This document shows, piece after piece, positions 3,296 to 58,427 of a DNA stretch of 64,000 nt. How positions within the stretch are numbered: position 1 is the stretch's first letter; each line of letters starts with the position of its first letter. The notes under the pieces were generated by a model. The model saw only the letters and a list, made by a program, of their open reading frames with translations, made no database searches and had not been told where the DNA came from. Source of the DNA: a virus; the IMG/VR virus record IMGVR_UViG_3300025593_000028, positions 1 through 64,000 of that record; one strand, written 5' to 3'. The position numbers were made by a program, and so were the translations under genes.

Positions 3296-3582
3296 GCTTG
3301 GGTTAAGGTGAGCTGCTTGATCCGCTCCTGGAGGATGCGGAGGTACCTCGCGTCCCTGCCGTCCTGGTCGAAGAAGCGACGGATCCTCTCGGGCGCGTGT
3401 TCCAGCTCCCCCGCGATCTCGCCGAGGCGGCGGACGTCGTCCGCGGTGAGGTCGAGCTCCTCCACCTCCACGAGGTCTTTGTTCTTCGGCCACTCGCCGT
3501 CGAGTTTGATGGACTCGGCCGCGTCCCTGCTGGCGGCGTGGACCTCCCAGCTGCTGAAGCAGGACAGCCTCCAGATCCTCAT
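3292..3582 (-). CDS. Unknown 96-aa protein
   Basis: ATG overlaps the upstream stop (ATGA). Begins MRIWRLSCFSSWEVHAASRD; helical C-terminal half with repeated Arg/Leu. Its TAA stop lies inside the TTAATA element of the promoter at 3264-3295, so that promoter starts exactly where this operon ends. Confidence 0.6.
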   Translation of the reverse strand: MRIWRLSCFSSWEVHAASRDAAESIKLDGEWPKNKDLVEVEELDLTADDVRRLGEIAGELEHAPERIRRFFDQDGRDARYLRILQERIKQLTLTQA

Positions 3583-4070
3583 CGCCGATCCTCCGCCCTG
3601 ATCAGGGCGTCGATCATCTCGCCGACCTGCCTGCGTGGGCACCGTCCCGCGTGGGCCTCGAAGCGGAAGGTCGCGCCGCCTTGCGGGCAAGCGCAGGAGA
3701 CTTCGTGCGGCGCGAGGTCCTGCACGCGCTCGAGGGTGCGGCGCCTCTCGTCGGCGAGGGCCCGGGCCTTCTCGTCCGGGAGCGCCGCGTCGTGGCGGAG
3801 CTCGTCCGCGTCGAAGACGTAGTGGCCGAACGCGCCTTCACCCCTGAGGGTGCGGGCGAGGTAGTTCGCGCCCGTGAGGGTGCGGTGGGTGACGCGTTCC
3901 CTGCACCACGTCGCCGGCGTCGCGGAGACGACGGTCTGGTCCCCGATCGTGCCGAAGCCCTCGATGATCAGCGCCTCGCCGTCGTGCTTGGTGCCCGCCA
4001 TGTCGGCGAGCGGGCCGTTCACGTGGACGGCCTTGCCGACGTAGAGGACGTCGCTCTGTACCTTGTCCAT
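3579..4070 (-). CDS. Unknown 163-aa protein
   Basis: ATG 4070 chosen for AGAGAGGAG 7 nt upstream, very like the leader of the gene starting at 3213. An alternative GTG at 4190 touching the previous stop (TAGTG) would add 40 residues in frame. C-terminal region carries CACPQGG and a later Cys (GRCPRRQ), possibly one half of a metal site. Function unknown. Confidence 0.6.
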   Translation of the reverse strand: MDKVQSDVLYVGKAVHVNGPLADMAGTKHDGEALIIEGFGTIGDQTVVSATPATWCRERVTHRTLTGANYLARTLRGEGAFGHYVFDADELRHDAALPDEKARALADERRRTLERVQDLAPHEVSCACPQGGATFRFEAHAGRCPRRQVGEMIDALIRAEDRR

Positions 4071-4189
4071 GCTGGTGCTCCTCTCTAGGTAGTGCTTGAC
4101 CCTCTCGCGGAGGGCGAACGTCACTGCAAGTTCGTGCTCGAGGCCGAGGGCGACGGCCTTGCTCGTGCCGGTGGGTGCGCGCACGTGCA

Positions 4190-4618
4190 CTATCGCCCGT
4201 CCTCTAGAGCGCGGAGCTTCGGCAGCACGTGGAGCTCTAGCCAAGAGTGCACGTGCTGCGTCGCGACCAGCTTGCCGAGCGCGATCATCTGGCCGTTGTG
4301 GGCCATGTCCGCGTACGCTCCGTCGTCCTCCACTTCATAGCGGATGAACCGCTGTCGCTGGTCTTCCTCTTCGTGCGCGGAGTCGCGTTCCCAGCGCAGG
4401 TAGTAGTCGAGCCCCTGCCGCAGCTCGTCGGCGAGCGCTGCTGCCTGCTCTAGCAGGCCCGCGCGGATCGCGGGCTCGATCGCCTCGACGACTTCCTCCG
4501 CCATGTCCGAAACGTCGATGTCCGGCGCGGGCTCGGCGAAGTCGACCGGCGGGAGTGCATCAGAGATGGCCTCGCGGGCGAGCTTCAGCACCTCATCTTG
4601 CGGCCCTGCGTCGGGCAC
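4190..4618 (-). CDS. Unknown helical acidic protein
   Basis: 142 aa from GTG 4618, with GGAGGAG 9 nt upstream that overlaps the preceding gene's last codons. Long helical acidic segments (DMAEEVVEAIEPAIRAG, LRWERDSAHEEEDQRQ). No recognised family. Confidence 0.6.
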   Translation of the reverse strand: MPDAGPQDEVLKLAREAISDALPPVDFAEPAPDIDVSDMAEEVVEAIEPAIRAGLLEQAAALADELRQGLDYYLRWERDSAHEEEDQRQRFIRYEVEDDGAYADMAHNGQMIALGKLVATQHVHSWLELHVLPKLRALEDGR

Positions 4619-10895: not shown

Positions 10896-11242
10896 TTGAA
10901 CTCCGGACCTTCGCTCAGCGACCAGTCCCTCGGGTCCTCCTCGAGCACGCCCTCGCGCACCAGCGACCCGATGGCCAGCGACCAGACGGACCCGCTCGGT
11001 CCCTGCCAGGGCTTCTCGTCCTTGACGCGCATGCGGACCGACTTGCCGGCCTCTACTAGCTCCGGCTTGCTCCACGGCGGGGGCCCGATCCTGCGCGCTC
11101 CCTCGCAGTGCGGGCACGGCCACTCGAAGTCGGGGGCCATGCAGAGCGCCGCCTGGATCGCCCCGGCGGCTTCCGAGATTTCCCCGGCCAGCTTCTTCGT
11201 CACGGCGTCCACGCCGTCTTCGTACTCTGCCGTCACTCTCAC
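10892..11242 (-). CDS. Zinc-ribbon protein with C-terminal winged-helix-like part
   Basis: 116 aa from a GTG overlapping the nucleotidyltransferase stop. CPHCEGARR mid-protein gives two Cys; another Cys lies earlier (ALCMAPD). The C-terminal part (GSVWSLAIGSLVREGVLEED) may be a small DNA-binding fold. Sits between the ATPase and nucleotidyltransferase with 4-bp overlaps on both sides. Confidence 0.55.
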   Translation of the reverse strand: MRVTAEYEDGVDAVTKKLAGEISEAAGAIQAALCMAPDFEWPCPHCEGARRIGPPPWSKPELVEAGKSVRMRVKDEKPWQGPSGSVWSLAIGSLVREGVLEEDPRDWSLSEGPEFK

Positions 11243-12051
11243 GACGACCACGCCTCCTGCGCCATCTGGACAGCGAGCCGGTTGATCGCGCCCCAGTCGG
11301 GCTCCCCCGGCAGCTTGCTCGCTCGACCGAACGTCTCGAGGTTCTCGTCCAGCCTGTGGGCGAGCCGCTCGACGCGGTACTTCGACCACTCGCCGCGCTT
11401 GATCTCGAGCAGCTCCTCCGCGTCGCCGGCCTCCCGCCGGTCCACGGTCATCCTGCCGGTGTCGAGGAACTCGATCCCCTGCCGCAGGATGCGCACGAGG
11501 TGCGACGCCTGCTTCACGTCGTAGCCGTAGCGGTCGAAGAGCTCCTTGCGCTTCTCCCCCATGTAGCCCTGGTACGAGCCGCTGAACATCTTCCTGAGCT
11601 GGCCCTGCGCGTAGCCGCGGAACGCGGGGTACGCGCGCATCGAGCTGAACAACTCGCGACGGTCCAGCAGCATCCGCCCGGCCGGCTCGATCCACGCGTA
11701 CATCTCGTCCGGCATCCACAGCAGCGCGAGCATGTTCGGGTTGCCCTTCGCGAGCAGCCTCAGCGCCTTCCGCCACTCGTAGCAGACGACGTCCCACTGG
11801 CCCTGCCGGACCTCGACGGTCCCGCGCGAGCCGAACTCGCGCAGCCCGAGCGCGTACTCTTCGTCCGGCACGACGACGCCCATCAGGTCCCGGTCGTCGA
11901 ACGCGTCCGGCTCCTCGGGCGGCACGTAGGTGCCGTGCGCCACGCTCCCGCGCCAGCCCAGCAGCACGCAGCCCTGGCCGAGCGCGTGGTCGTTCGTCGC
12001 GCAGACCTCGGCGAAGTCCTCGCCGCACACGCTGTCCACGATCTCGCTCAC
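11239..12051 (-). CDS. RlaP/YcgL-like nucleotidyltransferase
   Basis: 270 aa from GTG 12051 (GTGA). GWRGSVAHGTY (residues 32-42) followed by DDRDLMGVVVP matches the GS...DxD active site of the DNA polymerase beta-like nucleotidyltransferase superfamily, RlaP/pfam10127 branch. Family members transfer NMP to unknown targets. Downstream Tyr-rich helical half (MFSGSYQGYMGEKRKE) is typical. Part of the coupled ATPase operon. Confidence 0.7.
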   Translation of the reverse strand: MSEIVDSVCGEDFAEVCATNDHALGQGCVLLGWRGSVAHGTYVPPEEPDAFDDRDLMGVVVPDEEYALGLREFGSRGTVEVRQGQWDVVCYEWRKALRLLAKGNPNMLALLWMPDEMYAWIEPAGRMLLDRRELFSSMRAYPAFRGYAQGQLRKMFSGSYQGYMGEKRKELFDRYGYDVKQASHLVRILRQGIEFLDTGRMTVDRREAGDAEELLEIKRGEWSKYRVERLAHRLDENLETFGRASKLPGEPDWGAINRLAVQMAQEAWSS

Positions 12052-12203
12052 CGGCTGTCCCCTTCCTCCAACCGCACGATCGCGTCTTCGAGCACCTCGC
12101 GCACGGCCTGTTCCTCGACGAGCGTGAAGCCGCCCTCGATCCTCTCCTCCAGCTCGACGATCAGCTCGGTCGTGAATTCTTCGATGCTCAGCATGGTCGT
12201 CAT
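12048..12203 (-). CDS. Short acidic helical protein
   Basis: 51 aa, ATG overlapping the upstream stop (ATGA). Glu/Leu-rich two-helix sequence. Possible partner of the adjacent nucleotidyltransferase; unproven. Confidence 0.55.
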   Translation of the reverse strand: MTTMLSIEEFTTELIVELEERIEGGFTLVEEQAVREVLEDAIVRLEEGDSR

Positions 12204-12523
12204 CCCGTCACCGTCCTCGATTCGCGGCGCCTGCGCCGTTCGTCTGCCTGCAGCTCCATCCTCTCGCGCACCTCCGACATCATCGTCCGGGCGACCGCGA
12301 TCGCGCGCTCTTCTCCGGTCCCGTGGTCGCGCCTCCACCAGCGCTTCTTCTTGTCCTTGAACCCGTCCCCGGCCACTTTCAGGTTCGTGTACCAGTCGTA
12401 GGTGCACGCCATGATCGCGTTGTCTACCTCCTTGGGCCTCTCGCCCGGGCAGACCGCGTAGGACCACGTGCCGTTCGCGCGCTGCCAGACCTCCGCCCAG
12501 AGTTTTCCGTCTCTCACGGTCAT
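12200..12523 (-). CDS. Unknown 107-aa protein
   Basis: ATG 12523 with AGGAGGAG 3 nt upstream. Compact N-terminal half (MTVRDGKLWAEVWQRANGTW) and Arg-rich C-terminus. No family recognised. Confidence 0.6.
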   Translation of the reverse strand: MTVRDGKLWAEVWQRANGTWSYAVCPGERPKEVDNAIMACTYDWYTNLKVAGDGFKDKKKRWWRRDHGTGEERAIAVARTMMSEVRERMELQADERRRRRESRTVTG

Positions 12524-12642
12524 CGACTCCTCCTGTATCTAGCCGGCTTCAAGTGCTCGGGCCGGGCTTCAATGTTCTTCCGGGCGCGTTCGAGCGCCCT
12601 CCGCAGCCAGCCGCGTCTCGGTTCGTAGCGCACCGCGGTCAC
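12520..12642 (-). CDS. Short Arg-rich protein
   Basis: 40 aa from a GTG overlapping the acetyltransferase stop. Very basic (WLRRALERARKNIEARPE); likely nucleic-acid binding or a structural tail. The frame's longer extension lies over the acetyltransferase and was rejected. Confidence 0.5.
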   Translation of the reverse strand: MTAVRYEPRRGWLRRALERARKNIEARPEHLKPARYRRSR

Positions 12643-13022
12643 CCCACGTCGATGAACTTCGGGAACCGGTCGAAGAAGCGGTGCGACGCGTCGTTCCACG
12701 GCAGCACGCCGCACTCCGGCACGCGCCTCCCCACGGCTTCCGCGAGCCGGCGGCCGATCCCGTTCCGCCTGAACTTCGGCTTCACGTAGAAGTGCGCGAC
12801 CGGGCCGTCGTACCAGCGGTCGTTGAAGACCAGCGCCCACCCCGCGAGCTCGCCCTCGACCGTCCTGACGAGGAGGGCCGTGCCGTCCTTGATCCCGCGG
12901 TCGCGGATCCTGCGCAGCGCCTCTCCCATCTGCCCGGTGCGGTAGCAGACCTTCTCGCACTCGGCCGCTTCGTCGTCCGTCATCAGGTGCACGCGCTTGT
13001 GCGTCAGCCTGCGCGTCTCCAT
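12639..13022 (-). CDS. GNAT-family N-acetyltransferase
   Basis: 127 aa, ATG touching the previous stop (TGATG). Core sequence LVRTVEGELAGWALVF then HFYVKPKFRRNGIGRRL holds the acetyl-CoA motif R-x-x-G-x-G/A (RRNGIG), and a C-terminal beta strand. Acceptor unknown. Confidence 0.75.
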   Translation of the reverse strand: METRRLTHKRVHLMTDDEAAECEKVCYRTGQMGEALRRIRDRGIKDGTALLVRTVEGELAGWALVFNDRWYDGPVAHFYVKPKFRRNGIGRRLAEAVGRRVPECGVLPWNDASHRFFDRFPKFIDVG

Positions 13023-13198
13023 CAGATCGTGGGGATCGCCCTGGCGATCTCGTGCGCGGTCTCGACCAGCATGTCTGCCGCGCACCCGGCCTGGTCCACG
13101 TCCGGCTCGGACCTCGACATCTCGTACTCGAGCGTGCTCAGGTCCGACTCGAGGTCGCCCATCAGGCCGAGCACCCTGTCCCTCTCCTCCTTGTCCAC
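13022..13198 (-). CDS. Small acidic helical protein
   Basis: 58 aa from GTG 13198 (MDKEERDRVLGLMGDLESDL...), GGAGAGG upstream. One Cys pair region (GCAAD). Directly follows tRNA-Pro on the same strand. Confidence 0.55.
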   Translation of the reverse strand: MDKEERDRVLGLMGDLESDLSTLEYEMSRSEPDVDQAGCAADMLVETAHEIARAIPTI

Positions 13199-13226
13199 GG
13201 CACCTCTCCTTTCCTCGTACGGGTAT

Positions 13227-13299
13227 CTGTGCGGCGGGATTTGAACCCGCGACCGCCCGGTCCCGAACCGGGAGCTCTACCAGACCGAGCCCCGCACAG
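13227..13299 (-). tRNA. tRNA-Pro (CGG)
   Basis: Folds as a standard cloverleaf: acceptor CTGTGCG/CGCACAG, D-stem GCTC/GAGC, anticodon stem CCCGG/CCGGG with loop TTCGGGA (anticodon CGG), T-arm GCGGG-TTCAAAT-CCCGC. CCA not encoded. The box TAGGAT at 13306-13311 puts the predicted start site on the first tRNA base. Confidence 0.9.
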
Positions 13300-13305
13300 G
13301 CCCAG

Positions 13306-13311
13306 ATCCTA
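13306..13311 (-). promoter_or_regulatory. -10 box for tRNA-Pro, zero-leader
   Basis: TGATAGGAT: extended -10 whose TGA is also the stop of the HAD gene. Six bases separate TAGGAT from tRNA base 1. Confidence 0.6.
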
Positions 13312-13815
13312 TCAGGTCTTCGCGCCCTCGGCGAAGTACAGCAGTACCTCCACGTGTTCGTCCGTCAGCCCCTCGTACAGCTCGGGTTCCACGATCGCGT
13401 AGCGGCCCCCGACCTGGTCGTCGAGCACCCAGCCGGTGCTCTCGAGCACGCCTCGTTCCCAGTCGGCGTCGTCGTCGACGAAGGCCCAGTCCCGGCCGTC
13501 CGCGTAGTCGACGATCGCCGTCAGCTTGCTGTGCTCCCGCATACCGCGAGTCGGGCTGAAGCGCCCCGACCGCTGCCACTCGATCACGGGGAGCTCGGGC
13601 AGCCCCACCATCGGGGCGATGTGCTCGTTCGCCATTCCTTCCCAGGTCGTGCACCACGCGATCTCGAACGCCTCGCCCAGCCGCTCGAGCCGCTCCGCGG
13701 TCCCCCGTGGGACGCAGATCCTGAACCCCTCGGCATAGAACTCCTGGCCGGTGCCGCTGTTCGGAACGACGGTGTTCAGCACCCCGTCCACGTCGAGCGC
13801 CAGCAGCGGCTTCAC
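13312..13815 (-). CDS. HAD-like phosphatase
   Basis: 167 aa from a GTG overlapping the previous stop. N-terminal LLALDVDGVLN is HAD motif I (DxDG), WCTTW near residue 64 motif II position, and WAFVDDDADWERG fits motif IV (DD). Soluble enzyme acting on an unknown phosphate ester. Confidence 0.7.
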   Translation of the reverse strand: MKPLLALDVDGVLNTVVPNSGTGQEFYAEGFRICVPRGTAERLERLGEAFEIAWCTTWEGMANEHIAPMVGLPELPVIEWQRSGRFSPTRGMREHSKLTAIVDYADGRDWAFVDDDADWERGVLESTGWVLDDQVGGRYAIVEPELYEGLTDEHVEVLLYFAEGAKT

Positions 13816-13994
13816 GAGAGCACCCCCACGATCCAGAACGCCATCCCGGCGCCGCCGAAGATCCCGCCCGTGACCCTCCAGTCTTCGCTTGCGGCCGTGT
13901 TGCCACGCCGGCCGTAGAGCTCTTTCAACCCTATGCACGCCCAAGCCGCCACGATGCAGCCCCACAGCAGCGCGAGCCTCGCGGTCTCGTCCAT
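13812..13994 (-). CDS. Two-helix membrane protein
   Basis: 60 aa: LALLWGCIVAAWACIGLKEL and GGIFGGAGMAFWIVGVL as membrane helices. ATG 13994, GGAGG 5 nt upstream; it overlaps the stop of a 14-codon mini-ORF. Confidence 0.6.
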   Translation of the reverse strand: MDETARLALLWGCIVAAWACIGLKELYGRRGNTAASEDWRVTGGIFGGAGMAFWIVGVLS

Positions 13995-14038
13995 CACGAC
14001 CTCCCTCTCTGTAGCAGGTTCAAGATCCCGAGCACCAT
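13994..14038 (-). CDS. 14-aa coupled mini-ORF
   Basis: MVLGILNLLQRGRS. Its ATG shares a base with the metallophosphatase stop (TGATG) and its TGA shares a base with the next gene's ATG (TGATG). It also contains the ribosome site of the next gene. Likely a translational relay rather than a functional peptide. Confidence 0.45.
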   Translation of the reverse strand: MVLGILNLLQRGRS

Positions 14039-14790
14039 CACAGCTCGAACTCCATTACCGGGTGCTGGCCGGCCCTGTACGAGTCCGTCAGCCAGGACAC
14101 GTTCGCGAGCTCCATGCCGCGGTCGTCCTTGCCGGGGAACGACCACCGGCCGTAGCCTTCGTGGTTGTGCCCGAAGACGCAGAGCCGGGGCTCGTGTTCG
14201 CGCACCCAGCCGGTCAGCGCCTCGCTGCCCAGCCAGCGCGCGATCCCGTTCGGGCCCCCGACGCGGTCCCCGAACCCGGACGCGGGGCCGTGCGAGATGA
14301 CGACGTCCGCGTCGGACGGGATGTCGTTCACGACGTTCGCCATGTCCACGGCGCCGGGCTTGTCGTAGGTCGGGCCCATCGAGCGCTCCTGCGCTTCGAA
14401 CGCCCAGCCCGAGACGTCCGGCCCGAGCGACCACGGCGTGCCGTAGATCTTCAGCCCGAGCACCTCGCACCACCCATCGCAGAGGTACGTCGTCCACGGG
14501 GGCAGCACGCCGCCCGCGATCAGCTCGTCTACGAACTCTCCCTTGCTGCCGCTCTTGCCGACCTCCTGCAGGACGAAGTCGTGGTTGCCCGCGATCCAGA
14601 CGACCTGCTTGGCCTGCACCTCTTCGAGCCATTCTGCCCACTCGTTGTTCAGCCACTCGAGCTGGAATTCCAGGGAGTGGTCCCAGGCCGGGCACACGTC
14701 GCCGGCCACGAGGAGCAGGTCGCACGCGCCGACGTCCAGCGCGGGGTGCGGCAGGTCGCCGTGCAGGTCGGATGTGGCTTTGACGATCAC
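14038..14790 (-). CDS. Calcineurin-like metallophosphatase
   Basis: 250 aa from a GTG overlapping the upstream stop. Shows SDLHGD (residues 7-12), VAGDVC, IAGNHDF, ISHGP and FGHNHEG, the complete metal-binding series of the metallophosphoesterase fold. Probably hydrolyses a phosphoester or phosphodiester. Clusters with two HAD-like genes and a GNAT. Confidence 0.8.
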   Translation of the reverse strand: MIVKATSDLHGDLPHPALDVGACDLLLVAGDVCPAWDHSLEFQLEWLNNEWAEWLEEVQAKQVVWIAGNHDFVLQEVGKSGSKGEFVDELIAGGVLPPWTTYLCDGWCEVLGLKIYGTPWSLGPDVSGWAFEAQERSMGPTYDKPGAVDMANVVNDIPSDADVVISHGPASGFGDRVGGPNGIARWLGSEALTGWVREHEPRLCVFGHNHEGYGRWSFPGKDDRGMELANVSWLTDSYRAGQHPVMEFEL

Positions 14791-15128
14791 GCGCCCGGGT
14801 TCTCGATCCTGACCGGGACCCCGAACACGCGAGCCGGCTCGTCGTAGTAGCCGGTCGTGACGGCCTGGCCGTCGGTGACTTCGACCGGCGTGAGTTCCTG
14901 GTCCGCGCTCACGTAGTGGACCATCCCGCCTTCCCCGAAGTGCGGCACGACGTAGCGCGTGGGCATCGACCTCATCGAAGCGTGCTTCTTCACGAGCCAG
15001 TCGAACTGGTGCTGCCAGAGCAGGATCTCGTCCACGCCGTCCTCGGCGCGCCGTACGTCCTTGTACATCGGAGCAAGCTCCAGCGGCTCGGCGACCCCGA
15101 GGTACGAGATGATGTGCTTGCCGCGCAT
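14787..15128 (-). CDS. Unknown 113-aa protein
   Basis: Start at ATG 15128 (TGATG) or GTG one codon earlier (GTGA); GGAGG lies 8 nt before the ATG. Contains DEILLWQHQFDWLVKKH and VVPHFGEGGMVHY. No family recognised. Confidence 0.6.
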   Translation of the reverse strand: MRGKHIISYLGVAEPLELAPMYKDVRRAEDGVDEILLWQHQFDWLVKKHASMRSMPTRYVVPHFGEGGMVHYVSADQELTPVEVTDGQAVTTGYYDEPARVFGVPVRIENPGA

Positions 15129-15454
15129 CACTCGACCTCCACAAGCATCGCCACTGTGAAGCCCGCTAGGTCCTCCAGCTTCTCCAGGAGGTCGACGTCT
15201 CCGACCCAGACGTCCGCGCCGTAGCCTGGCGTGTAGGTGCCGTAGCCGAATTCTCCTTCTCGAGCGTGAAGGTCTCCCTCGGCCACGCTCTTGGCGTTCT
15301 CGGCCCAGAGCGTCACTTTAGCCGGCCGGTCCTCGAAGCCGAGCAGGTCCTCAAGCTCGGACACCACGAACCGCCCGCCGATCTTCACGTCCACGGTTTC
15401 TTCGCCGACGATCTCGACGATGCCATCGAACTCGAGCTTAGATGCCTCACTCAT
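15128..15454 (-). CDS. Unknown acidic beta-rich protein
   Basis: 108 aa, ATG 15454 with AAGGAG 8 nt upstream. Many Val/Glu/Gly strands (GIVEIVGEETVDVKIGGRF). No recognised family. Confidence 0.6.
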   Translation of the reverse strand: MSEASKLEFDGIVEIVGEETVDVKIGGRFVVSELEDLLGFEDRPAKVTLWAENAKSVAEGDLHAREGEFGYGTYTPGYGADVWVGDVDLLEKLEDLAGFTVAMLVEVE

Positions 15455-15459
15455 CTAGA

Positions 15460-16005
15460 TCACTCCTTGAAGTAGTCGTCCGCGCGCGTGAACGGTACCC
15501 CCGCACGCCACGCGGCCTCTCTGTCGGTCTCCATGTCGCCCACGTACAGGGTCGTGCTCGGCTCCTCGCCGAGGTCGCACATCGCGGCGAGCAGCATCCC
15601 AGGCCGCGGCTTGCGCATCGGGTCATCGAAGGCGTACGGGTTCGGGCTGCCGAAGTCTGGCGCCCCTGGGTGACCGTACGCCTCGTACCACGACCAGCGC
15701 CCGGCCTTCCAGTCGAGCGGGCCGACTCCGAACTCAAATTCGCACGCCGCGCGCTTGTCCCTGCAGTCGTCTACGCTTAGGTGGCCCCACGCCACGCCGG
15801 CCTTGTTGGTGCAGATCGCCACCTTGACGTCAGCGTCGAGGAGCGCGCTGAGCTTCTCGCGTCGCCCCGGCAGCACGTTCACGACGTGGAACGGGAGCAC
15901 CTCCTCGAACTCGCCCGATTCGCCGTCAGCGCCCATTCGGCGCACGTGGCCCTCGATGAGGGTGCCGTCGAGGTCGAACGCGACGAGCCGCGGATGCGGC
16001 GTCAC
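15460..16005 (-). CDS. HAD-superfamily phosphatase (polynucleotide-kinase/HisB-like)
   Basis: 181 aa from GTG 16005 (GTGA). LVAFDLDGTLIEG is motif I, VAICTNKAGVAWG motif II (TNK), KPRPGMLLAA motif III (Lys) and LYVGDMETDREAA motif IV. The KPxPGM pattern is that of the HisB/GmhB/PNKP branch, so a sugar- or nucleotide-phosphatase role is likely. Confidence 0.8.
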   Translation of the reverse strand: MTPHPRLVAFDLDGTLIEGHVRRMGADGESGEFEEVLPFHVVNVLPGRREKLSALLDADVKVAICTNKAGVAWGHLSVDDCRDKRAACEFEFGVGPLDWKAGRWSWYEAYGHPGAPDFGSPNPYAFDDPMRKPRPGMLLAAMCDLGEEPSTTLYVGDMETDREAAWRAGVPFTRADDYFKE

Positions 16006-22650: not shown

Positions 22651-23244
22651 ATGCGCTTCCGAGCGCTAGCAGCATCCGCGGCCATCATAGCCGCGGCCTT
22701 GTTCGCGCTGTTCGCACCGCAGTCAGCGGCGTCGGGCAGCGTAAAGTGCGGCACCCAGACTGCCGCGAAGTTCTCGAAGTGGTCCGGCCGGGTCTGGGAC
22801 CCCGACCGCTGGAGGCGCGGAGCACCGCCACAAGAGACGGTGCGCGCGCAGCGCCGCAAGCTGTCGTGCGCGAGGGGCCCCGGCCACCTACGTGCGATGC
22901 GCGGCCGCTGGAGGCGGGACAAGTCTGCCTTCTACGGCAAGCGCAAGCACTGCCGCTCCGGCCCGGTGTTCTCGGGCGGGGTGTCCGTGTTCGGCGGCCA
23001 GACCACGGCAGACGGCGGGTCGGCCTCCCGGGCCGGGATCGCGCTCAGGTCGAGCGCGACGATGGACCGCATGTTCCTGGTCAAGACGGGCGGCCACTCG
23101 GCCTACCTGAGGCAGATCGACTGGGGCCCAGCAGAAAGCACTGGGCGCGCCATCGACATCACGTTCGCGGGGGCCGCCAAGCTCGGCGGCGTGACCACGG
23201 ACGACCCCGGCACCGCGCGGCTCGTCCCCTCGAGCTGCATGTAG
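22651..23244 (+). CDS. Secreted protein with possible double-psi barrel domain
   Basis: 197 aa. Signal peptide MRFRALAASAAIIAAALFAL...SAASG (about 28 residues). Mature part has four Cys and a C-terminal domain with SGGVSVFGGQTTADGG, then GRAIDITFAGAAKLGG, which resembles the GRxIDLS...AA..LG end of RlpA-like/expansin barrels. If so it would act on peptidoglycan outside the membrane. Start ATG 22651 with AAGAGGAG about 12 nt upstream. Confidence 0.55.
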   Translation: MRFRALAASAAIIAAALFALFAPQSAASGSVKCGTQTAAKFSKWSGRVWDPDRWRRGAPPQETVRAQRRKLSCARGPGHLRAMRGRWRRDKSAFYGKRKHCRSGPVFSGGVSVFGGQTTADGGSASRAGIALRSSATMDRMFLVKTGGHSAYLRQIDWGPAESTGRAIDITFAGAAKLGGVTTDDPGTARLVPSSCM

Positions 23245-23291
23245 TATCTAAGACGCAAAGAGAGCACGCAGGCCCGGCTCTTCGTGACGCC

Positions 23292-23327
23292 TGCTACACC
23301 GCCGGGAAGCCCGGATACCGGCGGTCC
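23292..23327 (+). terminator. Hairpin before tRNA-Gln
   Basis: CCGCCGG...CCGGCGG, 7-bp stem, between the secreted-protein gene and tRNA-Gln. No T-run. Confidence 0.4.
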
Positions 23328-23341
23328 TAGCTTTCGCTCGT

Positions 23342-23413
23342 TGCGGGGTGGTGTAGCTGGCAGCACGTCTGGCTCTGGACCAGGAGGCGTGGGTTCGAAC
23401 CCTGCCCCCGCAG
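23342..23413 (+). tRNA. tRNA-Gln (CTG)
   Basis: Acceptor TGCGGGG/CCCCGCA, anticodon stem TCTGG/CCAGG with loop CTCTGGA, T-arm GTGGG-TTCGAAC-CCTGC, discriminator G as in Gln tRNAs. CCA not encoded. Confidence 0.88.
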
Positions 23414-23433
23414 CTCTTTGATACGATGCAGGC

Positions 23434-23506
23434 GGGGCCGCCAGGTACGGCCGGCGAGGCCTAACCAGCCGAGTCGGTGACGCGGGTTCGATTCCCGCCG
23501 GCTCCA
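23434..23506 (+). ncRNA. tRNA-like RNA, anticodon arm abnormal
   Basis: 73 bases. Acceptor GGGGCCG/CGGCTCC (one G-T) and T-arm GCGGG-TTCGATT-CCCGC are intact and 3' end has A. No 5-bp anticodon stem with a 7-base loop can be drawn from 23461-23480. TACGAT at 23421-23426 puts the start exactly at base 1. Degenerate tRNA or a structured tRNA mimic. Confidence 0.55.
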
Positions 23507-25498: not shown

Positions 25499-26527
25499 GT
25501 GGCGGAGGTAGAAAGGGACTACTGGGCGGGGTTCTCGGACTTTGTGCTGGGAGAGACGTGGGCCGGGGGGCCCAGCCCGAACCTGAAGCTCGTGGGCGCG
25601 CTCGCCGACGAGCTCGAGCCGCCCACCAGAGAACACAGGACGTGGCTCGCCTGCTGCTACGCCGCGATCTACAATACGTCCGGGACGGCGGCCCTCTATC
25701 GGCACTGGCCCGACCCGAGCGACGTGATCGCCGACCCCGATCCGGCCGGTTGGATCGAGGAGAACAGGCCCGGGATGCCGGTGCACTCGAACCGGCGCAG
25801 GACGCACGGCTCGCCGCGCAAGATGGCAGAGGGCCTCGAATCTCTCGCTCGGTTCTCGATGTGCGACTACTTCGAACCCGGGGACGACTACGACATGCTC
25901 TGGGACAACGTCCACGAGGTCTCGCACGTGGGCCGCTACTTCGGGATCAAGCTCGCCGGCACCCTGCGCGAGCTCGGCCTCACGGAGGCCGCGCAGTACG
26001 ACATCAGGGGCAACGGAGCGAAGAACGGGCGCCGCACGCTCGCGCTGCTCTACCCCGACGAGGCCGACTCGCTCGACATGAAGTCCGGCGGGAACTCGAG
26101 GCGCGCCGTGCTCCTAGCAGAGGACCGCGCCGCCGAGGTCAAGTCCTGGCTCGAAGACGAGCGCGGCCTCGCGGTAGACTGGTTCCAGCTCGAGGCGCTG
26201 CTTTGCGAGTTCAACCAGATGGTCAAGGGGAACCGCTACGCGGGCAAGACTTCGGACGCCGACTACGACGTGCTGCTCAAGGCCGAGTCCCACTTCGGGG
26301 CCGAGCCGTTCGCGCCGGTCCGCCGCGCGCGAGAGCGGCTGCTCCCGCTCGAGCTCGTCGAGACGAGCAAGCGCGAGAGGCTTCTCCCGGTCTACCGAGA
26401 CTGCGGGTACGTCTGGATCGACGGTTGGCACGACGACGGTGCCACCGACGACCCAGCGGACCCCGCGGTAAGGTCGGACAAGACCCTCAAGCAGGTGCCC
26501 ATCACTACGCCGTGGAGAGGAGACTGA
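25499..26527 (+). CDS. Putative amino acid:DNA transferase-like (ADDT/aGPT-PPlase) protein
   Basis: 342 aa. Residues 135-165 (WDNVHEVSHVGRYFGIKLAG) look like helix-hairpin-helix DNA-glycosylase-type helices. Residues 231-251 read LEALLCEFNQMVKGNRYAGK, the pattern I associate with the ADDT/alpha-glutamyl-putrescinyl-thymine pyrophosphorylase families of hypermodifying phages. HSNRRRTHG precedes. These enzymes replace phosphate on 5-phosphomethyl-uracil in DNA. A kinase of the matching type lies three genes on. The assignment is by memory of family patterns and needs a profile search. Confidence 0.5.
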   Translation: MAEVERDYWAGFSDFVLGETWAGGPSPNLKLVGALADELEPPTREHRTWLACCYAAIYNTSGTAALYRHWPDPSDVIADPDPAGWIEENRPGMPVHSNRRRTHGSPRKMAEGLESLARFSMCDYFEPGDDYDMLWDNVHEVSHVGRYFGIKLAGTLRELGLTEAAQYDIRGNGAKNGRRTLALLYPDEADSLDMKSGGNSRRAVLLAEDRAAEVKSWLEDERGLAVDWFQLEALLCEFNQMVKGNRYAGKTSDADYDVLLKAESHFGAEPFAPVRRARERLLPLELVETSKRERLLPVYRDCGYVWIDGWHDDGATDDPADPAVRSDKTLKQVPITTPWRGD

Positions 26528-27015
26528 TGGCGAGGCCCAAGGAGATCGTCGACGGGGTGCTGTGGATGAGCAGCAGCCCGGGCAAGTGGGAGCCGCGCGA
26601 GAAGCGCGACGCGTGGCTGCGCGACAACGGCATCGAGCACGTCGTGGCGCTGTGCAACAGAGACCCGGAGACGCAGGGAGTAGTGCCCGACACCGTGCAT
26701 GCTCCCGTCGTGGACTCGCACAAGACCGTCGCCGGCGCGATCCCTAGGTCGATCGCGCCGACCGTGGCCCAGTGGGTCCGGGACGGGGAGCCCACGCTAG
26801 TGAGCTGCCTAGCCGGCAGGTCCCGCTCAGGGATCACCTGCGGGCTAGTGCTCCGCGAGCTGTACGACCTGTCCGGCGAGGAGGCGCTCGAGCTCCTCCG
26901 CGATCGGCGCCCGCGCGCGATCAAACGCGAGGGCCCGGAAGCATGGTTCAGCGCGCTGCCGAGGCCGAGCGCCGATCCAGAGCCCGACGGATCTGAGACG
27001 ATCGGCACGGTGTGA
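26527..27015 (+). CDS. Dual-specificity-type phosphatase
   Basis: 162 aa, ATG in TGATG overlap. P-loop CLAGRSRSG (Cys-94, Arg-100) matches CX5R of the PTP/DSP superfamily, with Asp-63 in VVDSH as general acid candidate. Soluble. In this setting it could act on modified nucleotides or DNA phosphate, or on protein. Confidence 0.7.
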   Translation: MARPKEIVDGVLWMSSSPGKWEPREKRDAWLRDNGIEHVVALCNRDPETQGVVPDTVHAPVVDSHKTVAGAIPRSIAPTVAQWVRDGEPTLVSCLAGRSRSGITCGLVLRELYDLSGEEALELLRDRRPRAIKREGPEAWFSALPRPSADPEPDGSETIGTV

Positions 27016-27401
27016 GGACCGGGACCATCTACGGCCTCTGCGACCCCGACGGGACGCTCAGGTACGTGGGGAAGACGGTGCAGCGACCCAGGGAACGGCG
27101 CAGCGGCCTCGTCCGCGAGGCCGTTCAGCGTGGTCGTAGCTGCCCGGTGCACGGGTGGATCCGCGACCTCGTCGAAGCCGGGTCCGGACCCGCGCTCTGG
27201 CTCCTAGAAGAGGGCGTCCCGGTAGGCGACTTGGACGACCGCGAGAAGGCGTGGATCGACGCACTACGCAGCGACGGGATCGAGCTGCTTAACGTGTTCG
27301 CGGGCGGCAACGGCGGCAAGCCGATGCCCAAGCGCAAGAGAGACAGACTGTCGGCGGTCGCCATCGGGCGGCCCCGGCTCGAGAACGGGAGGTTCGCGTG
27401 A
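27012..27401 (+). CDS. GIY-YIG nuclease
   Basis: 129 aa from GTG (GTGA). TIYGLCDPDGTLRYVGKT contains the GIY-YIG pair (IYG...RYVGKT), followed by Arg in QRPRERRSG and Glu in DREKAWIDAL. C-terminus ends in basic NUMOD-like GGNGGKPMPKRKRDRL. Homing-type or host-DNA nuclease embedded in the modification cassette. Confidence 0.75.
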   Translation: MRTGTIYGLCDPDGTLRYVGKTVQRPRERRSGLVREAVQRGRSCPVHGWIRDLVEAGSGPALWLLEEGVPVGDLDDREKAWIDALRSDGIELLNVFAGGNGGKPMPKRKRDRLSAVAIGRPRLENGRFA

Positions 27402-28012
27402 TCCTCAACCTCAGGGGGCCCAGCGGCTCCGGCAAGAGCTACCCCGGGTTCAGGCTCCTAGACAACTACGGCCCGCCGGTGGAGGAGATCCGGAGCACCG
27501 ACTACTTCGGGAGGAAGCGCCCCAAGCTGATCGCGCAGATCCTGCCGGGCGGGCTCTGCCTAGCCGGCAGGTACACGATGAAGAAGAGCACGGTCGGCGA
27601 CGGCGTCGGGTACTCCGGAGGAGTGGACGGATTCTTCCCGGTAGCAGAACTGCAGGACATGCTGACGATGCTCAGCGACCGCTTCCCACACATGCTCGTC
27701 GAGAGCCTGATGATCAGCGGCACGTACCAGCGCTGGGCCGACTGGGCCGACGAACGGGACGCCGCGGGACAGCCCGTCACCTTCGCGACCCTCGACACGC
27801 CGCTCGAGACCTGCCTGCGCAGGGTGCGTGAGCGAAACGGCGGCCGCGAGGTCAAGGACGACACGATCGCTAAGCACCGCAAGCAGGTGCACAGGTGCGC
27901 GAGCCGCCTCCGCGAGGAGGGCGGGCACAGATCGTTGATCCTAGACCACACGCGCTCCTACGACCAGGTCGAGCACCTGCTGCTCGAGGGCGGCTGGGAC
28001 CCGACACAGTAG
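27398..28012 (+). CDS. P-loop kinase, 5-hmdU DNA kinase-like
   Basis: 204 aa from GTG (GTGA). LRGPSGSGKS (Walker A at residues 7-14), then VESLMISGTYQRWADWADE, and a C-terminal lid with RVRERNGGREVKDD. The N-terminal LRGxSGSGKS and the ESLxxSG...RW pattern recall phage 5-hydroxymethyl-uracil DNA kinases. It would phosphorylate the base in DNA before displacement by the ADDT-like enzyme. Alternative: a generic nucleotide kinase. Confidence 0.55.
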   Translation: MILNLRGPSGSGKSYPGFRLLDNYGPPVEEIRSTDYFGRKRPKLIAQILPGGLCLAGRYTMKKSTVGDGVGYSGGVDGFFPVAELQDMLTMLSDRFPHMLVESLMISGTYQRWADWADERDAAGQPVTFATLDTPLETCLRRVRERNGGREVKDDTIAKHRKQVHRCASRLREEGGHRSLILDHTRSYDQVEHLLLEGGWDPTQ

Positions 28013-53638: not shown

Positions 53639-54046
53639 CTCCTTTGTCGAATTGCAATGCGGAAGATGCTGTGCTACATTAGCAAATAGAAAACCACACG
53701 ATGGGCAAAAATCAAGAGCAGATGGCCCCTGCCCCCAGCGGCCCATCGGCACTGGATCTTTGAAATACTGCTCTTTTCTACGGCTGGACAGCCACGGGCT
53801 CAACAGCTCGAACACGGCACCTACCGCTACAGCTGACCTAGCTCGCCAGCGCCAAGACCAGTCATAGTTGTTGCGGTCAGACGGTGTCTTTGACCTGATG
53901 ACATGTCCCACTCCCACTACATGATGAAATCTACGTACTGGCTCCTCATCGCACATGAGTAGAGCCGCAGATGAGCTGGTCCAATGCCCCTCTCCCTCAA
54001 AGAGCCCGGCTGCCCAGGCGGCCTCGGCGTCGCTTACTCCTGCCAC
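53636..54046 (-). CDS. Single LAGLIDADG-domain protein with C-terminal zinc-like site
   Basis: 136 aa from GTG 54046, 13-bp overlap with the methyltransferase stop. AAWAAGLFEGEGHW is the LAGLIDADG helix; WRARSAVAVGAVFELLSPWL fits the second helix region. C-terminal FCPSCGFLFANVAQHLPHC adds a CxxC...HxxxC-type site. DNA composition is less GC-rich than neighbours, typical of a mobile homing gene. Would act as a homodimer. Confidence 0.7.
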   Translation of the reverse strand: MAGVSDAEAAWAAGLFEGEGHWTSSSAALLMCDEEPVRRFHHVVGVGHVIRSKTPSDRNNYDWSWRWRARSAVAVGAVFELLSPWLSSRRKEQYFKDPVPMGRWGQGPSALDFCPSCGFLFANVAQHLPHCNSTKE

Positions 54047-55308
54047 GGCTCCGGCCTATGCACCCATCCTGAGATCTCTTGCGGCCAGCGCCGGTAGTCA
54101 AGTGAGCAGTTGAACTCGTACTCGCGATCTCCTATCTTCTTGCAGGGCGCACCTGGTTTCCCGTCAAGCGCACGTCCGACCCACCCTGAGATCCAGCGAC
54201 CGTTCTCCACTGGAGCGCACTTGCCCACGTACTTCGACGCGTTCCCGACCGAGATGCCCTCCGGCCAGCGCCAAGCGTCCGGCAGGCCCATGAGCCTCGA
54301 CAGCTCGCGGATCGTGAGGAATCGCGTCTCGCTCCAGTGCACGAACTTCGACGCGCCGGACCCTGCTACCACGTAGCCCGGCCGGTCGGGACGGATCCTA
54401 GTGGGCCACTGCCAGCCTCGCGGGTCGCGCCAGTTAGACTCGTCGTAGGCGAACCGCTGCAGCAGCGTCGGGGGCGGCGAGTCCTGCTTGAGGATCGCCT
54501 CCTTCATGTTCTCGCCCGGGAGCCAGTCCTGCTCGATCTCGCGCAGCAGCGCCCCGAGCCGCGCCGTGTCTTCGTCGATCGTCACGTGCGCGTCGACCCG
54601 GCCGTCCTCACGGCGCTTCCTCGCGGCCCACTCGCTCGGTTTCCGGCGGATCGCCTGCTCGCCCCACTTGATCGAGAGCTTCTGCAGGTCACCGATGGCT
54701 TCCTCGTACGTCACGACCTTGCGAGGCTCGGGCGCGTCGATCCCGAACGGCACCCGGTGAGCGACCCAGAAGTAACGGTGCCGGAGCTGCGCCGCCCCGA
54801 CCGTCGCCCCCGACATCATCACGTGCGTCAAGTCGTAGCTCTGGCCCGACGATCGCTCTAGCTCAGAACGCAACCGAAGCATCAGGTCTCGCCCGGTCGT
54901 GTAGGCCTGCTGCACGGACTCGAAGGCCACGATCTCTGCTCCCGGGGCGCCGTCCTCGCCCGTGCAGCGACCGCCGAACTTGGCTAGGTCTCTCATGCAC
55001 GAGTTGATGGGCGAGTCCGGGCCCCTGGAGTTCTCTCCCTTGGAGACGTTCATCAGCGAGAAGCCGCTGCACGGCGGGGTGCCGTGCACGTAGCCTACGC
55101 CATCGTAGGGCTCCCACTCGCGCTCTGGGGCCTCCTGCACCTCTACTCCCTCGGTGCCCAGCAGCTCAGCGTTCTCGTAGAACGCGTCATCACCGAAGCC
55201 GCCCGGTAGGGTCGCGCGGCCGACCACGTCAAACTTCTCCGTCTCCACGGTCCCCAGCGTCCAGTGGCCCGCGAGGCCCTGGCAGTCTACGGCGCGGTGC
55301 TTGCTCAC
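54034..55308 (-). CDS. DNA cytosine-5 methyltransferase
   Basis: 424 aa from GTG 55308 (GTGA). Motif I-like DCQGLAGHWTLG at the N-terminus, motif IV PPCSGFS with catalytic Cys-80, motif VI-like VAFESVQQAY, motif VIII AAQLRHRYFWV. Also a target-recognition region of 100-150 residues. Methylates cytosine in phage DNA, perhaps to resist restriction. Downstream LAGLIDADG gene overlaps it. Confidence 0.85.
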   Translation of the reverse strand: MSKHRAVDCQGLAGHWTLGTVETEKFDVVGRATLPGGFGDDAFYENAELLGTEGVEVQEAPEREWEPYDGVGYVHGTPPCSGFSLMNVSKGENSRGPDSPINSCMRDLAKFGGRCTGEDGAPGAEIVAFESVQQAYTTGRDLMLRLRSELERSSGQSYDLTHVMMSGATVGAAQLRHRYFWVAHRVPFGIDAPEPRKVVTYEEAIGDLQKLSIKWGEQAIRRKPSEWAARKRREDGRVDAHVTIDEDTARLGALLREIEQDWLPGENMKEAILKQDSPPPTLLQRFAYDESNWRDPRGWQWPTRIRPDRPGYVVAGSGASKFVHWSETRFLTIRELSRLMGLPDAWRWPEGISVGNASKYVGKCAPVENGRWISGWVGRALDGKPGAPCKKIGDREYEFNCSLDYRRWPQEISGWVHRPEPWQE

Positions 55309-55460
55309 TCTACGTACGCTCCTCTGTCGGCTGCTGCAAACATCAGTTCCTCTGCCATCGCTTCTGCTAGGTCTTCACCTTCGGCCAGCGACATGCCCTC
55401 GCCGTCACAGTACATCACGAATGCGACCACCAGATCGTTCAGCGTAGGTCCGACGTTCAT
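55305..55460 (-). CDS. Short acidic helical protein
   Basis: 51 aa from ATG overlapping the MazG-like gene stop. Helical (LNDLVVAFVMYCDGEGMSLA). Unknown. Confidence 0.55.
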   Translation of the reverse strand: MNVGPTLNDLVVAFVMYCDGEGMSLAEGEDLAEAMAEELMFAAADRGAYVE

Positions 55461-55816
55461 CCCTCGTAGAAGCTCCTCCGCCTCGCGGCGGTCTTGTCTT
55501 GCGCTGCTCTGCACAGCTTTGCGAAGTCCTCGTCTCCGTAGCCGCAGTTGAGTACCAGATTCCACAAGAAGAGCTGGACGTCAGCGAGCTCCTCCGCGAC
55601 CATCTGACCCTCCGTGGTGCCTATCAGCGGCCCGCCGGTCTCCGCGTCGGCCCAGGGCTTCCAGCCGGGGACCTCACGAAGGGCCTCGTGCAGCTCGTCG
55701 GTAGCAGCCAGGACGTTGTCCCTGAACGAGCGGGCCAGGTCCTCCCCGGCCCGCTCGTACGGATCCTCCCCGAAGCTCTCGCGCTGGAGAGCTCGCTGTC
55801 TACCGATCAAGCCCAC
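55457..55816 (-). CDS. MazG-like NTP pyrophosphohydrolase
   Basis: 119 aa. DELHEALREV and MVAEELADVQLFLWNLVL supply the paired acidic ExxE/ExxD residues of all-alpha dNTP pyrophosphatases. Could remove dUTP or another nucleotide, relevant to base modification or nucleotide pool control. GTG 55816 start; no ribosome site seen. Confidence 0.7.
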   Translation of the reverse strand: MGLIGRQRALQRESFGEDPYERAGEDLARSFRDNVLAATDELHEALREVPGWKPWADAETGGPLIGTTEGQMVAEELADVQLFLWNLVLNCGYGDEDFAKLCRAAQDKTAARRRSFYEG

Positions 55817-57447: not shown

Positions 57448-58038
57448 TCAGAAGCCGCGCTGCCTCCTGCGGATCTTCTCTGCCAGCTTCGGTTCAGACA
57501 CGTGAGTGTAGATCATAGTGGTGTCTACGCTCTTGTGGCCGAGCAGGTTCTGGATCTCGCGGATGTTGAGGTCTCCCTCGCTCATCAGCTCGGTCGCGTA
57601 CGTGTGCCTGAGCATGTGCGGGTGGCACGGGCCTTCGATGCCGGCCCGCCGCCCGTAGCGCTGCATCATCTGCCAGCAGTAGTGCGGGGACACGGGGCTC
57701 CCCTTCAGCGTCACGAAGAGAATCTTGCTTCCGTCCGCGTATTTCTCTCGCTCTCGCTTCCAGCGTTCTACGAGCTCGAGCGTGCCGTCCTCGATCTGGA
57801 CGTAGCGCTCCACCTTGTTCTTGGCGATGGCCGCGCGGATGTGGATGCGCCGCTCGCGCACCTGGACGTCGCGGACGTTCAGGCGGCAGAGCTCGCCCAC
57901 TCGCAGCCCTGCGCGGTACATCAGCTCGAGCATCGCGCGGTTCCTGATGCCGGTCGGCCGCCGCATGTTCGGCACCGCCAGCAGAGCACGCACGTCCTCG
58001 TCCGAGAAGATCTTCGGAAGCTCTCGTCCCTTCTTCAT
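57448..58038 (-). CDS. Tyrosine recombinase, catalytic domain only
   Basis: 196 aa from ATG 58038. AGLRVGELCRL (Arg I), AKNKVERYV (Lys), HMLRHTYATEL (HxxR), LLGHKSVDTTMIYTHVS (His/Trp position and Tyr nucleophile). XerD/phage-integrase class. It lacks the usual N-terminal core-binding domain of about 100 residues; the frame upstream is open to 58107 but not folded-looking. Might resolve genome multimers or work with a partner. Confidence 0.8.
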   Translation of the reverse strand: MKKGRELPKIFSDEDVRALLAVPNMRRPTGIRNRAMLELMYRAGLRVGELCRLNVRDVQVRERRIHIRAAIAKNKVERYVQIEDGTLELVERWKREREKYADGSKILFVTLKGSPVSPHYCWQMMQRYGRRAGIEGPCHPHMLRHTYATELMSEGDLNIREIQNLLGHKSVDTTMIYTHVSEPKLAEKIRRRQRGF

Positions 58039-58102
58039 ATAAGCAATTTCTCCTCTAAGCCAGTCGCAGACTGAGATTCGTACGTGGGGTACCCGCATAT
58101 AG

Positions 58103-58108
58103 ATCATA
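58103..58108 (-). promoter_or_regulatory. Leftward TATGATCT box for recombinase
   Basis: Predicted start site near 58096, giving a leader of about 58 nt with AGAGGAG before ATG 58038. Confidence 0.4.
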
Positions 58109-58238: not shown

Positions 58239-58244
58239 GCGGAG

Positions 58245-58319
58245 TGCCCGCCCCGGGACTCGAACCCGGAACCTCTCCCTTCTGAGGGGAGCGCCTCTGC
58301 CGGATTGGGCTAGACGGGC
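58245..58319 (-). tRNA. tRNA with anticodon CAG and short variable loop
   Basis: Acceptor GCCCGTC/GGCGGGC with discriminator A, T8-A9, D-arm GCC...GGC, anticodon stem CTCCC/GGGAG with loop CTCAGAA, 5-base variable loop AGGTT, T-arm CCGGG-TTCGAGT-CCCGG. CAG reads Leu CUG, but bacterial tRNA-Leu normally has a long variable arm. The box TAGGAT at 58326-58331 sits six bases before base 1. Confidence 0.8.
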
Positions 58320-58325
58320 AAGGAG

Positions 58326-58331
58326 ATCCTA
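58326..58331 (-). promoter_or_regulatory. -10 box for tRNA (CAG), zero-leader
   Basis: TAGGATCT, predicted start on tRNA base 1 (58319). Confidence 0.6.
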
Positions 58332-58346
58332 CGGATCGCGCCCCAG

Positions 58347-58427
58347 TGCGCGGGGACGGAATCGAACCGCCACAGCCAGAGACGCCTGGTTTACAGCCAG
58401 GGGGGCTCGCCCATGCCCAGCCCGCGC
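58347..58427 (-). tRNA. tRNA-Tyr (GTA), long variable arm
   Basis: Acceptor GCGCGGG/CCCGCGC, discriminator A, D-stem GGGC/GCCC, anticodon stem CCTGG/CCAGG with loop CTGTAAA, 13-base variable arm as in bacterial Tyr tRNAs. The acceptor stem continues outside the tRNA as CGCGCCCCAGT/ACTGGGGCGCG, an 18-bp helix in the precursor. Confidence 0.85.

Follow-up and report, generated by a model that had tools for sequence, protein, structure and literature searches.

The cassette and its genome

Four genes on the plus strand follow one another at positions 25499-28012 of the 64,000-nt window analysed here, which covers positions 1-64000 of the 95,288-bp IMG/VR record IMGVR_UViG_3300025593_000028. Neighbouring genes overlap by 1-4 bases: TGATG at 26525-26529 holds both the stop codon of the first gene and the ATG of the second, while GTGA is common to the second and third genes at 27012-27015 and to the third and fourth at 27398-27401. 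An earlier note on the window had taken these four coupled genes for a candidate DNA-hypermodification cassette. All four ORFs were recovered with intact frames and translational coupling, and the idea itself was upheld, the two outer genes scoring over the curated Pfam cut-offs for ADDT and 5-hmdU DNA kinase.

The first gene (25499-26527) encodes a 342-aa protein of the ADDT family of amino acid:DNA transferases (PF18724, 28.7 bits for a cut-off of 26.2) and the last (27398-28012) a 204-aa member of the 5-hydroxymethylpyrimidine DNA kinase family HMUDK_HMUD1 (PF18748, 32.9 bits for a cut-off of 27), in agreement with the ADDT/aGPT-PPlase-like and 5-hmdU-DNA-kinase-like P-loop proteins that the earlier note had named. 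Since both Pfam matches are modest, the two proteins were compared by hhalign with profiles of relatives gathered in this analysis, from which the query was left out. The ADDT was matched to eight other ADDTs with a probability of 97.4 (E 1.1e-11), and the kinase to its relatives with a probability of 99.3 (E 1.2e-20). The structural model of the ADDT is of moderate confidence (pLDDT 64.8) and its top three PDB matches are 8z2n/8z2m, the 5-PmdU glycinyltransferase gp46/PUGT (prob 1.00, Foldseek E 0.03, TM ~0.5); other ADDTs were present in the alignment used for the model, so that this match is supporting and not independent evidence. From these relationships, the protein would be expected to transfer an amino acid onto 5-phosphomethylpyrimidine DNA.

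The kinase contains the P-loop GPSGSGKS, followed by GGVDG and PLETC..RV..RNGG, and thus shares its P-loop, GG-D and PLE-C-RV-RNGG motifs with the M6 and ViI kinases. The family-invariant residues (P-loop, G75, D77, P135, C139 and R146) are all present, and the AF2 model (pLDDT 87.6) adopts a P-loop nucleotide/polynucleotide kinase fold. The HMUDK kinase family is known for 5hmdU. The 5hmdU DNA kinase phosphorylates 5hmdU within DNA (PMC7653180).

The two inner genes are less clearly assigned. The second (26527-27015, plus strand) encodes a 162-aa dual-specificity/CX5R-type phosphatase, with the CX5R motif CLAGRSR at residue 94, in line with the earlier assignment; the Pfam DSPc score (33.2 bits) falls just under its cut-off of 33.5, and the PTP-SAK score (24.3 bits) is also below the Pfam cut-off. 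The third (27012-27401, plus strand, 129 aa) had been called a GIY-YIG nuclease. GIY...YVG-like residues can be read in it, but the profile score (15.6 bits, E 0.02) does not reach the cut-off of 22.6, and we therefore label it GIY-YIG-like only. It is probably a free-standing homing-type endonuclease. Homologues occur in Gordonia phage GMA2 and in two loci carrying an Asp-type hydroxymethylase (defined below), all lacking the cassette, which makes this protein a probable passenger. The suggestion that both inner genes belong to the chemistry is thus kept as a possibility for the phosphatase and disfavoured for the nuclease. Close relatives of the cassette proteins were not found in DNA and protein searches of phages, plasmids, viral contigs and prokaryote genomes.

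The record (66% GC) is marked as a tailed phage by terminase, head protease, capsid, portal, PolA, helicase and RuvC-like genes. Its first 127 bases recur as its last 127, and this terminal repeat indicates an essentially complete genome, in which the absence of a gene is meaningful. The cytosine methyltransferase and MazG-like enzyme noted earlier elsewhere in the window were both found, the former a C5 enzyme with PPC, ESV and QLR motifs (54034-55308), the latter a MazG-like/dUTPase-like NTP pyrophosphohydrolase on the minus strand (55457-55816; phrog_173, phrog_18650). A tyrosine integrase (57448-58107) lies inside the replication module, near tRNA-Leu and tRNA-Tyr genes (58244-58427). The GNAT acetyltransferase at 12639-13085 is a possible candidate for a late tailoring enzyme. 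RNA-repair-type genes are numerous in the window at 11239-16005 and in the record at 72169-75205 (RlaP, HAD_SAK, metallophosphoesterase, PNK3P-like, RtcB and RNA ligase). An ARAGORN tmRNA call at 23170-23506 overlaps a tRNA-Gln call and is likely spurious.

A putative pyrimidine hydroxymethylase beyond the window and its probable substrate

The earlier note had seen no dUMP hydroxymethylase in the window and regarded the pathway as incomplete. The first point is true of the window alone; as to the second, the pathway is less incomplete than it had seemed, since the remaining genome contains a thymidylate synthase (TS) homologue and a nucleotide-kinase-like gene, which join the MazG-like enzyme of the window. 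The homologue, a putative dCMP-type pyrimidine hydroxymethylase of TS fold, is encoded on the minus strand at 66200-67180 of the record, 2.2 kb past the end of the window. It forms an operon with a dNMP-kinase-like gene directly before it (67180-67881, minus strand) and, after and overlapping it, a gene for an MBD4-like HhH-GPD DNA glycosylase (65778-66353, minus strand), whose best 15 solved relatives are all MBD4. The best solved relative of the hydroxymethylase is MilA, a CMP 5-hydroxymethylase; a search for very near relatives found none. It is the sole TS-like gene of the genome, where searches also found no TET/JBP, no dCMP deaminase and no HMUDK_hel. As TET/JBP is lacking, hydroxymethyl groups have no recognised source other than the nucleotide hydroxymethylase.

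Phages SPO1, ViI, phiW-14 and M6 are known for hydroxymethyluracil or modified thymidine, and their enzymes have Asn at the position equivalent to residue 177 of E. coli ThyA and a second Asn after the catalytic Cys. In T4 gp42 these two positions are occupied by Asp and Thr, and MilA also has the Asp. In E. coli ThyA, Asn177 selects dUMP, Asp at this position selects dCMP, and replacing Asn177 by Asp turns the preference of a canonical thymidylate synthase to dCMP (PMC8670742). The MetaGPA survey found that Asp177, together with position 147, marks enzymes on cytosine-modified contigs (PMC8670742), and the MilA study linked Asp to cytosine substrates and two more positions, when occupied by Arg and Ser, to deoxyribose (PMC5175136). 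The ThyA row of our alignment was entered by hand, and its numbering agrees with PMC8670742. The present enzyme has Asp179 where a dUMP hydroxymethylase would have Asn, together with Arg127, Ser169 and a Thr following the catalytic Cys, so that it reads dCMP and not dUMP at each of the three published selectivity positions (Asp179, Arg127 and Ser169).

This reading is consistent with the distribution of these residues among viral contigs. In a first scan, loci similar to the present enzyme combined the Cys-Thr pair with Asp in 80 of 80 cases, a set partly selected for Asp because one of the two peptide patterns used contained it. In a second scan, loci similar to the known dUMP enzymes all had Asn (80/80; 78 with Cys-Asn and two with Cys-Cys). 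We refer to these as D-type and N-type. A maximum-likelihood tree placed the present enzyme, on a long branch, in a clade of 25 rows that are all D-type (support 99/97), separate from an all-N clade of 26 rows (100/92). Existing annotations do not always follow these residues: the enzyme of Pseudoxanthomonas phage PW916 (3280-4098) is annotated as a deoxyuridylate hydroxymethyltransferase and those of DSL-LC01, AXL_3 and GMA2 as thymidylate synthases, yet all have the dCMP-type Asp.

Phage Xp12 has an enzyme of dCMP methylase type, and the present sequence would fit a dCMP hydroxymethylase or a dCMP methylase of this type alike. With a sole pyrimidine hydroxymethylase bearing dCMP-type residues, 5-hydroxymethylcytosine (5hmC) is a likelier base than 5-hydroxymethyluracil, the kinase substrate that the earlier note had drawn from ViI and M6. 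Judged from a few residues of one enzyme, the target base is probably cytosine rather than thymine.

Association of the kinase and ADDT with the two enzyme types

The kinase and the ADDT are otherwise associated with N-type enzymes. In whole-record searches, HMUDK was present in 6 of 20 N-type records, one of them scoring below cut-off, and ADDT in 8 of 20, against 0/28 for each in D-type records (Fisher, p = 0.003 and 0.0003, respectively, for records that are related, so that trials are not independent). Profiles including the query, which matched ViI and M6 strongly, detected only P-loop fragments, no full-length kinase and no ADDT in 47 D-type records. Likewise, the 5-kb flanks of N-type loci contained the kinase in 22/80 cases and the ADDT in 13/80, while both counts were 0/80 in the 10-kb flanks of D-type loci; many of the surveyed records are fragmentary, and these zeros are no proof of absence. 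Rhizobium phage RHph_I65, found independently, combines the kinase and ADDT with an N-type enzyme, and in it HMUDK_hel adjoins the kinase. No kinase or transferase is annotated near the enzyme of Pelagiphage HTVC200P, which resembles the present one by search match. No D-type genome but the present one was found with both a kinase and an ADDT.

The hydroxymethylase itself is in its usual setting, as the replication genes (PolA, helicase, RuvC and AAA/RecA-like) were matched in 72-79 of 80 D-type loci; the replication module is also common to Actinomycetia phage DSL-LC01. MazG-like homologues were found in 23/80 D-type and 0/80 N-type loci, and an MBD4-like gene beside other D-type enzymes in 0/80. 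The cassette, located beside the head genes, looks like an addition to the phage. It is 38 kb away from the hydroxymethylase gene, and the two are thus linked only by the shared genome.

A possible route to amino-acid-bearing cytosine

Taken together, these data suggest that the phage probably attaches an amino acid to bases of its own DNA, and we somewhat favour cytosine hypermodification, in which 5hmC would be built into DNA, phosphorylated, and its phosphate replaced by the amino acid. The residues of the TS-fold enzyme suggest that it would convert dCMP to 5-hydroxymethyl-dCMP, which host enzymes, together with the neighbouring nucleotide kinase, would raise to the triphosphate for incorporation by the PolA-type phage polymerase. 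The cassette kinase, by its family, would then phosphorylate the 5-hydroxymethyl group of 5hmC in DNA, and the ADDT, by its family and the solved glycinyltransferase, would exchange the phosphate for an amino acid to give an aminomethyl-type conjugate on cytosine. More speculatively, the phosphatase may clear unreacted phosphomethyl groups, the glycosylase may repair hydroxymethyluracil:G mispairs arising by deamination of 5hmC, and the MazG-like enzyme may clear unmodified dNTP. In favour of the cytosine route we counted the lack of TET/JBP and of a dCMP deaminase, the single TS-like gene and the MBD4-like gene overlapping it; against it, the Asn-type enzymes of all other kinase/ADDT carriers from the hydroxymethylase searches, the weak ADDT match (14-20% identity), the distance of the cassette from the hydroxymethylase gene and the absence of HMUDK_hel.

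Phages M6, PaMx11 and ViI hypermodify thymidine by means of a 5-hmdU DNA kinase and an ADDT/glycinyltransferase. M6 and ViI resemble the present phage in uniting a hydroxymethylase, a PF18748 kinase and a PF18724 ADDT in one genome, and in the RNGG motif of the kinase. Here, unlike in M6, PaMx11 and ViI, the hydroxymethylase is of dCMP type and far from the cassette, a phosphatase and a GIY-YIG-like gene separate the ADDT from the kinase, and no HMUDK_hel was found. The same thymidine chemistry would operate here if the hydroxymethylase used dUMP despite its Asp, the resulting 5hmdU being tailored by the kinase and ADDT. The dUMP-type enzymes of the other carriers speak for this explanation, as does the activity of the solved ADDT on 5-phosphomethyl-dU; we nevertheless consider it unlikely, given that the three selectivity positions read dCMP, that the enzyme falls within the all-D clade apart from the dUMP clade, that the Asn177 to Asp change switches thymidylate synthase to dCMP (PMC8670742), and that the phage lacks a dCMP deaminase that would provide dUMP, even if the host can draw on a supply of its own.

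Another explanation, to which we give a rather small chance, is that two systems coexist, the D-type enzyme making 5hmC (or 5mC) and the cassette acting on another base or on C5-methylated sites. Its substrate may be 5hmU from an unrecognised oxidase, or methylated sites, as may be the case for the mycobacteriophage cassettes with TET/JBP. The sharing of the replication module, D-type enzyme included, with cassette-free phages makes the cassette look like a separate addition, and the best tblastn matches of the ADDT, weak as they are (E 0.1), are mycobacteriophage proteins from cassettes of the TET/JBP type. Against two systems, the genome has neither TET/JBP nor a second TS-like gene, and so no other recognised hydroxymethyl source. 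In the mycobacteriophage LilMcDreamy, genes 1-5 encode a ParB-like protein, a TET/JBP-like protein, an ADDT, an Asp/Arg hydroxylase-like protein and a PF18751 kinase, and Reprobate is arranged similarly. As in the present phage, the ADDT and P-loop kinase adjoin packaging genes (terminase), but the kinase of LilMcDreamy belongs to PF18751 and not PF18748, and its hydroxymethyl groups would arise through oxidation of DNA by TET/JBP and not from a nucleotide hydroxymethylase. LilMcDreamy gp5 (3761-4333) and Reprobate gp5 (3327-3866) are annotated as terminase small subunit, the name also given to PHROG 800. LilMcDreamy gp5 matches the PF18751 P-loop nucleotide kinase at 240 bits in a cassette with an ADDT, a TET/JBP-like oxygenase and a ParB-like protein, and is probably a misnamed DNA-modification kinase.

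It is very improbable that the kinase and ADDT-like proteins do not modify DNA, the kinase serving RNA repair (with RtcB, RNA ligase, RlaP, PNK3P and HAD_SAK) or the cassette having decayed: RNA-repair genes are numerous, the best PHROGs family of the kinase is PHROG 800 and its best structural matches include polynucleotide kinase, but its motifs match the M6/ViI kinases, its neighbour is an ADDT, the cassette frames are intact and coupled, and the terminase label is also carried by P-loop kinases of mycobacteriophage ADDT cassettes.

The favoured cytosine route can also be set beside known cytosine modifications. The T4-type and MetaGPA phages, in which 5hmC is glucosylated or carbamoylated, share the Asp at the 177 equivalent and the Thr after the catalytic Cys, but the relatives searched here lack the kinase and ADDT; DSL-LC01 has a glycosyltransferase and a UDP-galactopyranose mutase in their place. 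CmoX/CmoY of Synechococcus phage S-B43, a carboxymethylcytosine-glycine system, likewise leaves cytosine bearing an amino acid, but through the unrelated chemistry of a carboxymethyltransferase and an ATP-dependent amide ligase (PMC12783734). The chances are about even that the kinase-and-transferase route, so far linked to thymidine, has moved onto cytosine, yielding a base for which we found no published description.

Three or four small recombinant proteins would suffice to test the key steps, and a candidate 5hmC-DNA kinase would, if the proposal holds, be a useful reagent for 5hmC labelling. In that case an unseen amino-acid-bearing cytosine would be predicted, and the chemistry by which phages hypermodify DNA through phosphorylation and subsequent displacement would not be bound to uracil and could pair with a different nucleotide source.
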